Below are positions 13,255 to 16,507 of a DNA stretch of 25,985 nt, piece by piece. Origin of the DNA: a virus; IMG/VR virus record IMGVR_UViG_3300025646_000314, positions 1 to 25,985 of that record, one strand, 5' to 3'. A program made the position numbers and the translations under genes. The notes under the pieces were generated by a model. That model made no database searches and had not been told where the DNA came from. It was given only the letters and a program-made list of their open reading frames with translations. Numbering within the stretch: the first letter of the stretch is position 1; every line of letters starts with the position of its first letter.

Positions 13255-13758
13255 CTATTTAATAACAGGATCTAACTTGTAGCCATTTTGTTGTAACCAC
13301 TGAAGTGCCAACTGGCGTTGCTCAGCTGATTTTTCAGCTGGGCGTGCCTTGCTTGAGTAAGGCACATAGGCTTTGCCGATAGTTTTGGCAAAGAAATCAA
13401 CAAGAGCTGAACGCTTGATAGTCAATAGTTCCAAAGAGTGAGTGTACTTAGCTTTTAAGTCGTCTAATCTTTGGAGTTGATTTCCCAAAACTTCGAGGCT
13501 TTGCATAAAAGCCTTTTCAGTGTTGATTCTAGAGCCATTAGCGTCAGCTAGTTTAGCTAATCGCTGACTGACTTCGTCAAGTTTGCTTTGCAAACTTTTG
13601 ATACGATAGTCAGTTCTAGCGATAGCTGAACTAAGATCGACTTCAACATTGAATAAATCGTCAAATTCGATCTCTGGTTTGTACTCCACAGCTAATGCAG
13701 TCATTACTGCATCTCTCTTGCGTGCTTGTATGTTAGTTAGTTTATCGTTAGTTTTCAT
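13255..13758 (-). CDS. First gene of early operon, coiled-coil protein, unknown function
   Basis: 167 residues from the ATG at 13758 (AGAAAGG upstream). The frame is open to 13800, but that part runs into the AGCGA-repeat stem. The middle is long and helical (DYRIKSLQSKLDEVSQRLAK and ALEVLGNQLQRLDDLKAKY-like heptads), and the C-terminus is basic (YVPYSSKARPAEKSAEQRQL). Its GC content is visibly higher than that of the other early genes, matching the adjacent control region. As the first gene read from the divergent region it is a candidate for host takeover or control of the origin. No family recognised. Confidence 0.72.
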   Translation of the reverse strand: MKTNDKLTNIQARKRDAVMTALAVEYKPEIEFDDLFNVEVDLSSAIARTDYRIKSLQSKLDEVSQRLAKLADANGSRINTEKAFMQSLEVLGNQLQRLDDLKAKYTHSLELLTIKRSALVDFFAKTIGKAYVPYSSKARPAEKSAEQRQLALQWLQQNGYKLDPVIK

Positions 13759-13787
13759 AGTTATATTACCTTTCTGAGGATCGAGTA

Positions 13788-13864
13788 TTTGATCTCTCAC
13801 AGCGATAGCGAATAGCGAAGCGAATCAGGAGCGTTAGCGACAAGCGAGCGGGTGCGAGATCAAA
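13788..13864. repeat. AGCGA repeat cluster enclosed by a 12-bp inverted repeat
   Basis: TTTGATCTC-T-CAC (13788-13800) pairs with GTG-C-GAGATCAAA (13852-13864), one mismatch. The loop holds about seven AGCG(A) units within 13801-13848. It could be an iteron-like protein-binding array or an mRNA leader structure of the first early gene. Confidence 0.6.
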
Positions 13865-14092
13865 CACGCAGAGACTCAAGAAATAAGTGGTAATATTACA
13901 TGAAAACACGATAACTGACTGACTACAAGTAGCTAGAGAATGCTAATGACAAATTAGACCTGTGGAGTGATACAAATCAGAGAGAGATTCTCTCAGGCAG
14001 CTACAGCGAGGCAAATGAATAGGTGCGTAGCTCTAGGGTGCAGTTGGGGGCAACAAGCCCTTGCCGAGCCAGCTGACTGAGAGTCAATGTTA

Positions 14093-14117
14093 CCCCCCTT
14101 GAGGGGGGAGAGGGGGG
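14093..14117. repeat. C6/G6 hairpin with second G6 tract
   Basis: CCCCCC (14093-14098), loop TTGA and GGGGGG (14103-14108) form a hairpin. A second GGGGGG lies at 14112-14117 and could compete for the C tract. The purine run continues as GAGAGAG. Confidence 0.6.
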
Positions 14118-14134
14118 AGAGAGATAAGCGACTT

Positions 14135-14255
14135 TGTCCTACACGAAACCAGACAGAGATCTGATAGAACGAATATGATAAATAGCGAGCCTGTCGAGCG
14201 GACACGAAGTGTATTTATCATTGAGTGATGAAGATCTATCTGGTGGAGTAGGACA
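14135..14255. repeat. Long segmented inverted repeat, 30 matched base pairs
   Basis: Four arms pair in nested order: TGTCCTAC (14135-14142) with GTAGGACA (14248-14255), ACCAGA (14148-14153) with TCTGGT (14239-14244), AGATCT (14157-14162) with AGATCT (14232-14237), and ATGATAAATA (14175-14184) with TATTTATCAT (14212-14221). The centre is 27 nt and itself contains TGTC/GACA. It lies about 80 nt upstream of the small terminase gene, which makes a replication origin or packaging site plausible. Confidence 0.65.
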
Positions 14256-14301
14256 TTGGAGCGACATAACAGTAAAGTAATAGATTATTACTATAATTGT
14301 C

Positions 14302-14330
14302 TTGACAAGGGAAAACAGAGTCTATATCTA
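14302..14330 (+). promoter_or_regulatory. Candidate sigma-70 promoter for terminase genes
   Basis: Perfect TTGACA (14302-14307) followed by TATATC (14323-14328, 15-nt spacer) or TATCTA (17-nt spacer), directly before the GTG at 14338. A TATAAT at 14292-14297 overlaps upstream without a good -35. If the first is used, transcription would start near or within the start codon, so the -10 assignment is uncertain. Confidence 0.4.
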
Positions 14331-14337
14331 ACAAGAG

Positions 14338-14724
14338 GTGGGCAACGAGTTATCCAACAACAAGTATGGGCTGACAGCCAAGCAAAAGACGTTAGTAGAT
14401 ACTATCGTAGCTGAGGGTTGCAGCATCAGAGAAGCAGCCACTAAGGCTGGATATTCAACAAAAGACGGAGGCAGAGTAGCTGCTAGTCGTACACTACGAA
14501 TCCCCAAGGTACAGCAGTACATGATGGATCAAGTGGCACGAACTATAGGACTGGGAGCGGTGACTGCATCACACAAGTTAGTCCATTTAAGCAACAACGC
14601 ACGCAGTGAGTATGTGCAACTCGAAGCTAGTAAAGATATACTAGACAGAGTAGGACTACGCACCCCAGATAGAGTATCTCACCAGATAGACGGTGAGATT
14701 AAAGTGAATATAGATCTCTCCTAA
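14338..14724 (+). CDS. terS: Terminase small subunit
   Basis: 128 residues. The start is GTG at 14338, overlapped by AAGAGG. No in-frame ATG lies nearby, so the exact start is uncertain. KYGLTAKQKTLVDTIVAEGC followed by SIREAATKAGYSTKDGGRVA and a SRTLRIPKVQQYM segment is the N-terminal helix-turn-helix of small terminases, which recognises phage DNA. The C-terminal half (LEASKDILDRVGLRTPDRVS, ending in IKVNIDLS) fits oligomerisation and contact with the large subunit. It lies beside the putative pac-like inverted repeat, with the large subunit 1.7 kb downstream. GC is higher than in the head genes. Confidence 0.82.
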   Translation: MGNELSNNKYGLTAKQKTLVDTIVAEGCSIREAATKAGYSTKDGGRVAASRTLRIPKVQQYMMDQVARTIGLGAVTASHKLVHLSNNARSEYVQLEASKDILDRVGLRTPDRVSHQIDGEIKVNIDLS

Positions 14725-14772
14725 CAAACAGGGGGTGGGGGGTTAAAAAACTGTATGTGTACGGAGAGAGAG

Positions 14773-15645: not shown

Positions 15646-15917
15646 TGGTAGCCAAGAAATACCAAAACCCTGAAGGTGGATTAAATGAAGCTGGAAGAAA
15701 ACATTTTCAACGTACAGAAGGAGCTAATCTTAAAGCACCTGTTAAAAAAGGAAAGAACCCCAGAAGAATATCTTTTGCTGCTAGATTTGCTGGTATGAAA
15801 GGACCTATGAAAGATGAGAAAGGTAGACCAACAAGGAAAGCCTTAGCATTAAAAGCATGGGGTTTTGGTAGTGTGGAAGCAGCAAGAAATTTTGCTAGAA
15901 ATAATAAAAAATCTTGA
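15645..15917 (+). CDS. Small basic protein, DUF6321-like
   Basis: 90 residues. NPEGGLNEAGRKHFQRTEGA and NLKAPVK, then ISFAARFAGMKGPMKDEKGR followed by PTRKALALKAWGF match the pattern I recall for DUF6321 phage proteins (GGLxxxGR, NLKxPV, SFxARxxGxKGPM, PTRKALAL). The family has no proven function. The high positive charge and the position before the large terminase suggest binding to DNA during packaging or in the virion. ATG overlaps the previous stop. The next gene starts at a TTG overlapping this stop. Confidence 0.82.
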   Translation: MVAKKYQNPEGGLNEAGRKHFQRTEGANLKAPVKKGKNPRRISFAARFAGMKGPMKDEKGRPTRKALALKAWGFGSVEAARNFARNNKKS

Positions 15918-16507
15918 GCAGTAAAGCAAAGATCAAAGGTACTCGTGTTGAACGAGAAATCGTTAAGTTATTTGAAGCACAAGGATTTTCAGCTCGTAGA
16001 CAACCTATGTCTGGAGCGATCATGGACTTTCCCCATGATGTTTATGTTAATGATTTATTTGATGGAACAACCATTGAAGTTAAAGCCAGAAAGAATGGTG
16101 CTGGATTCAAACAGCTAGATGATTGGAAAGGATCAGCTGATATTTTAATCTTGAAAAAAGATTTTGAAAATCCTAGTGTGTATCTTGATTGGAAATTATT
16201 TAAGGAGTTTTTAGATGTCTATAGAGAATACCAACATAGATTCGGAAGTGAATCTGGAAACAAGGAAACAATTTCCTCTAAGTTTTCAAGAGAGAGAACG
16301 ATTAAGAAAGATCGTAAAAAAAGTTCACCTAAAATACCTTCCCGAAAGTTTTCTGACCAACAAGGAAGCGGACAAATTAATCGAAGCTCTTGGTCCAACA
16401 GTAAGAGAAAAATTGCTAAAAGAGTACATAGACAGAGTGAAGTAGATGGTACAGTTCAACTACAAACCAGATGGCAGTACCTTAAAGAGCTTTCTAAAAG
16501 CAGATGA
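15914..16507 (+). CDS. Hjc-like PD-(D/E)XK nuclease with long overlapping C-terminal tail
   Basis: 197 codons from a TTG overlapping the preceding TGA. The first ~105 residues form a complete Holliday-junction-resolvase-like nuclease: KGTRVEREIVKLFEAQGF (E13), MDFPHDV (D42), TIEVKARK (E55-x-K57), GFKQLDDWKGSADILIL and SVYLDWKLFKEFL. It probably resolves branched DNA before packaging. Residues ~105-197 are Ser/Lys/Arg-rich without fold pattern and run in another frame over the whole of 16215-16445 and into the large terminase. Either the tail is a by-product of a frame left open, a frameshift is present, or both frames code. Confidence 0.75.
   Translation: MSSKAKIKGTRVEREIVKLFEAQGFSARRQPMSGAIMDFPHDVYVNDLFDGTTIEVKARKNGAGFKQLDDWKGSADILILKKDFENPSVYLDWKLFKEFLDVYREYQHRFGSESGNKETISSKFSRERTIKKDRKKSSPKIPSRKFSDQQGSGQINRSSWSNSKRKIAKRVHRQSEVDGTVQLQTRWQYLKELSKSR
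16215..16445 (+). CDS. Small conserved phage protein nested in the nuclease frame
   Basis: 76 residues. The ATG at 16215 lies 7 nt after a perfect AAGGAG (16202-16207), so translation here is well supported. It contains KYLPESFLTNKEADKLIEAL followed by GPTVREKLLKEYIDRVK, a pattern (FLT-KEADKLI-ALxPxxxEKLLK) I know from small phage proteins just before large terminases. Function unknown. It ends in TAG directly before the terminase ATG, with no gap, which suggests coupled translation. Entirely overlapped by the nuclease frame 15914-16507. Confidence 0.78.
   Translation: MSIENTNIDSEVNLETRKQFPLSFQERERLRKIVKKVHLKYLPESFLTNKEADKLIEALGPTVREKLLKEYIDRVK

Follow-up and report, generated by a model that had tools for sequence, protein, structure and literature searches.

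The 25,985-nt stretch of viral DNA analyzed here (hereafter, the window) contains two divergent blocks of genes. The early genes run leftward and encode SSB, an annealing/exonuclease-family protein, a RecE-like exonuclease, an HTH regulator, and a DUF932 protein; the late genes run rightward and comprise terS, a Hjc-like resolvase, terL, a portal-type head-tail adaptor, and the major head protein. The terS gene, which encodes the small terminase subunit (14338 to 14724, + strand), was identified by a match of its product to Pfam family PF03592, Terminase_2 (E = 1.4e-9; 39.1 bits versus a cut-off of 26.1). The match of ORF 15914-16507 to the Hjc-like Holliday-junction resolvases is a weak one, at 20.6 bits versus a cut-off of 21.1, and PHROGs describes this ORF as RusA-like. 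The nearest isolate that we found was Pelagibacter phage EXVC031P Hodr (OQ414635), whose TerL and TerS are 65% and 53% identical to those of the window, and the open-access papers that we searched contained nothing on Hodr or on the element described below.

Between the early and late genes lies a long segmented inverted repeat (14135 to 14255, + strand), and the four nested arms of 8, 6, 6, and 10 bp that had been predicted around a 27-nt center were located exactly. From the outside inward, the paired arms are TGTCCTAC (14135-14142) with GTAGGACA (14248-14255), ACCAGA (14148-14153) with TCTGGT (14239-14244), AGATCT (14157-14162) with AGATCT (14232-14237), which is a palindrome on its own, and ATGATAAATA (14175-14184) with TATTTATCAT (14212-14221), and the center occupies 14185-14211. 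The placement of the repeat about 80 nt before terS also held, since the distance from its end to the GTG start codon at 14338 is 82 nt.

The repeat folds well as RNA, with z-scores of -5.2 (+ strand) and -5.7 (- strand), and none of 200 dinucleotide shuffles was as stable on either strand. Of the 588 segments into which the contig was divided for scanning, it ranked third by shuffle z, and in a cruder ranking, by folding energy regressed on GC content, it fell outside the top 25 of its strand. Purines account for 43 of its 61 unpaired bases. The strongest-folding segments of the contig start at 13509 and 13553 (z of -7.8 and -6.4; together 13509-13684), overlap the early ORF at 13255-13800, and contain nested arms of the AGTTTAGCTA..CGCT type. 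We found no Rfam match to the repeat region at either the gathering or a relaxed threshold, and a search for a tRNA-like element returned none. An intrinsic terminator was considered and rejected because no T-run follows the repeat on its 3' side; the sole match in a terminator scan was a weak site on the opposite strand at 13980-13994.

Downstream of the repeat, the late promoter of terS (14302 to 14330, + strand) consists of TTGACA at 14302-14307 and a TATCTA-type -10 element at 14325-14330, and a simple promoter scan misses it because this -10 element is weak. Such promoters are general in the group: TTGACA occurs 110 times upstream of terS in the relatives, versus 17.6 expected, and promoter-like pairs peak between -100 and 0, at 0.395 per genome versus mostly 0.03 to 0.1. 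Just before the promoter is a palindrome, GTAATAGATTATTAC (14277 to 14291), whose dyad is mostly kept, with changes, in an alignment of the relatives that lack the repeat. This palindrome is likely an operator, to which a regulator would bind. We recognized no promoter in the window that reads into the conserved region left of the repeat, and an additional rightward promoter upstream of the repeat's slot was barely above background in the relatives.

We compared the repeat across TerS relatives, fetching up to 80 per scan. Among these, the repeat is limited to the window's own lineage, where it is 89 to 100% identical, and it occupies an accessory module (14120 to 14259, + strand) that is present, absent, or replaced as a unit. 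Two relatives (L006 and L241) carry a different, shorter, and unrelated hairpin in the same slot, and the contigs of five others (L008, L009, L010, L240, and L242) have neither the repeat nor a substitute hairpin, while retaining the flanking conserved core and poly-G tracts that we describe below. Direct repeats of AGCGAC flank the module (14127-14132 and 14260-14265). Given that L008, L009, and L010 have a single AGCGAC copy at their empty sites, and that L240 and L242 have AATGCAC where AGCGAC is expected, both an insertion with target duplication and a deletion by slippage are possible. Isolated phages contained no distant copies of the repeat. Since close relatives have another hairpin or none at this site, the repeat looks exchangeable and is probably not an indispensable origin or pac site.

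Variation within the repeat was assessed across five haplotypes. Only 2 of 58 paired columns are variable, versus 11 of 68 unpaired columns (Fisher p = 0.021), which indicates that the stems are constrained, even though nothing compensates: both changes in paired columns disrupt pairs, and the compensatory arm changes by which the original prediction proposed to recognize a functional site are absent from these haplotypes. Most haplotypes have an A·G mismatch at the position of the window's last ACCAGA-arm pair. At 14239-14246, where the window reads TCTGGTGG, most haplotypes (at the same place in L003-L005 and L090) read GCTGGTGG, the E. coli Chi octamer, probably by chance.

Compensatory change is found directly to the left of the module, in a conserved structured core (13979 to 14092, + strand). 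This core comprises a long-range stem (13990-14002 with 14071-14083) that encloses a conserved purine-purine mismatch, an inner stem (GGCAA at 14010-14014 with TTGCC at 14061-14065), and a tip hairpin within 14035-14061. Both sides have changed at 5 of its 27 pairs, with 97.1% of cells remaining paired, and its covariation score was reached by none of 500 shuffles and was near 0 in slid controls. The core is kept even where all flanks differ and the repeat is gone. Its occurrence is restricted to the lineage of the window: its covariance model had no match in 99 other loci, and pattern scanning of bacterial and archaeal genomes gave none either. The purine-purine mismatch is constant in kind and switches between G·A and A·G, and one core pair alternates between U-G and U-A. 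In L002, a tip hairpin of the L008/L010 type lies in a region that otherwise resembles the window, which makes L002 recombinant at the scale of a single hairpin.

A second neighboring hairpin (13788 to 13864, - strand), formed by TTTGATCTC(T)CAC and GTG(C)GAGATCAAA around an interior that is GCGA-rich on the + strand, has four compensatory pairs, three in L006/L241 and one in L005. Its conserved mismatch is a pyrimidine one on the + strand and a purine one on the - strand, and because it lies about 30 nt upstream of the ATG of a leftward early gene (13758), it is probably part of an early leader. The hairpin that occupies the slot in a sister group exchanges whole stems with compensation (GTGCAG/CTGCAC, GTCGAG/CTCGAC, and GCCAAG/CTTGGC) and also shows a linked T-A/C-G change; these pairs were read from anchored stems and, for L015 and L020, directly from sequence.

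Folding upstream of terS is a property of the wider family as well. Across 114 nonredundant regions upstream of terS, folding was stronger than in intergenic controls (z < -5 in 19% versus 3%; p = 7e-5) and stronger than at random positions, and the sequences involved are often unrelated. On the + strand of these regions, poly-G and motifs of the AGCGA/CGAAG type are overrepresented, although the preference of the latter for loops goes little beyond that of A-rich words generally. When the strands of the 114 slots were compared, z was slightly lower on the - strand overall and lower on the + strand among the 40 strong slots. On the + strand, the conserved mismatches of the core and the repeat take the form G·A or A·G, and these mismatches, together with the U-G/U-A pair and the purine-rich unpaired bases, favor the + strand as the folded one.

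Poly-G tracts provide a further candidate signal around terS. Upstream, a C6-TTGA-G6 hairpin is followed by the poly-G doublet GGGGGGAGAGGGGGG (14103-14117; 14093 to 14117 for the two together, + strand), and a second doublet, GGGGGTGGGGGG (14731 to 14742, + strand), directly follows the gene. Doublets in this orientation occur upstream (-250 to 0) in 25 of 114 relatives and downstream (+250 to +500) in 28 of 112, with about 0.9 expected in each case, whereas opposite-strand doublets occur in 1 of 114 and 7 of 112, respectively. GGGGG itself peaks immediately before and after terS, with little elsewhere.

These doublets raise the possibility that the region is a pac site, where TerS would read signals on both sides of its own gene, as in SPP1. 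The doublets would then be the likely recognition sequences, and the hairpin, lying between terS and the upstream doublet, would be no more than an accessory element or a spacer. The excess of oriented doublets on both sides argues for such a site, as does the assignment of TerS to Terminase_2, a family that we take to include SPP1 gp1. The pac site of SPP1 overlaps late promoters, the RBS, and the 5' part of terS with its start, and TerS binds two flanking sites there (PMC6316719); the TerS of its relative SF6 makes weak, shape-selective contacts (PMC4737164). In addition, the contigs of near-complete relatives end at scattered positions and share no fixed end (Rayleigh p = 0.19), and one of 10 relatives checked has an end overlap of 123 nt, which is weakly in line with permuted genomes. 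However, the doublets are missing from Hodr and from most of its clade, and the repeat is gone where the doublets persist, as in L008. An SPP1-type pac site should be kept in close relatives, yet the repeat is absent from five contigs and replaced in two. We regard the pac explanation as unlikely and, by analogy with SPP1, the doublets as better pac candidates than the repeat. The original prediction is thus partly supported: a packaging or control region is plausible for the neighborhood, in view of the doublets and, weakly, the contig ends with no fixed end, but an origin or pac site in the repeat itself is weakly founded, given the uncompensated arms, the five contigs that do without the repeat, and the two in which another hairpin replaces it.

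The same prediction also allowed for a replication origin, which could for example be transcription primed, with G clusters on the nontemplate strand stabilizing an R-loop while a primosome is loaded at hairpins of the displaced strand. The G tracts do lie on one strand, and the early genes searched included no recognizable initiator, helicase, or polymerase, only SSB and annealing/exonuclease proteins, to which the late genes add the Hjc-like resolvase. GC skew, proposed as evidence for an origin, has its minimum and switch near 13 kb, but this coincides with the switch in direction between early and late genes and so is no argument for one. The repeat is dispensable in relatives, no initiator repeats were found, and no cognate initiator gene was recognized among the proteins searched, leaving small genes with no assigned function; we consider an origin distinctly improbable. 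It is improbable, too, that the module is a selfish, MITE-like palindromic insertion with AGCGAC as its 6-bp target duplication. AGCGAC does bound the module and is single in the empty sites of L008-L010, but slippage between the two copies fits equally well, L240 and L242 have AATGCAC in its stead, and when two module sequences were scanned for, the only matches at other places were 20-mers in one unrelated gene, at about the level of chance. The highly improbable alternative is that the repeat is a functionless by-product of local base composition: its variable presence and uncompensated arms would suit a neutral origin, but none of the 200 shuffles folds as well and the stems vary less than the loops.

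We tentatively favor, with a little less than even confidence, the explanation that the repeat is an exchangeable hairpin at the periphery of a structured element, probably an RNA, which belongs to the early/late control region of a Hodr-related phage. The module at 14120-14259 would have been inserted at one point between the leftward early and rightward late genes, and the repeat would act through its folded + strand, most likely as part of a rightward RNA that crosses the region. There it would form a variable helix peripheral to the conserved core at 13979-14092 and may adjust expression, or the binding of a protein, immediately before terS. We infer transcription of the repeat and folding of its + strand, and likewise any protein that would read it. 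Against an RNA we count the lack of a promoter for the core, the uncompensated arms, the confinement of the core to one lineage, the lack of an Rfam family, and the five contigs with no repeat. We also entertain a broader and rather doubtful possibility, namely, that in a large family of marine phages oriented poly-G doublets flank terS as a new pacL/pacR-like signal, and fast-changing, lineage-specific RNA hairpins in the intergenic slot are selected for their shape and not for their sequence.

In practice, the repeat is best treated as exchangeable. In the literature that we searched, the abundant pelagiphage-like podoviruses had no described packaging signals, and the oriented doublets around terS are a concrete, testable pac candidate. 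Next to these doublets, the covarying hairpins suggest a control element that works through its structure and that sequence searches miss because its sequence turns over so quickly.

Among known systems, the pac region of SPP1 and SF6, where gp1 acts on pacL and pacR around pacC, resembles this locus in having noncoding signals near the start of terS that overlap the late promoter region, and in having repeated motifs on both sides; the candidate signals here differ in being poly-G doublets that flank the whole gene. We know of no SPP1 counterpart to the hairpin of this phage. The control region of Hodr shares the divergent early/late layout, and its slot before terS likewise contains a long segmented hairpin, although the sequence of that hairpin is unrelated, there are no poly-G doublets, and the hairpin arms (L093, 12036-12374) carry mirrored RBS-like AAAGGAGG, one of which serves the early gene. 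The third comparison is with the peripheral helices (expansion segments) of structured RNAs, from which the repeat differs in that no Rfam family matches and its transcription and RNA role are putative. Structured-RNA peripheral helices vary by having hairpin A, hairpin B, or none at one site beside a constant core, and the same pattern, of different hairpins or none at a single site next to a constant covarying core, is what we observe ahead of terS.
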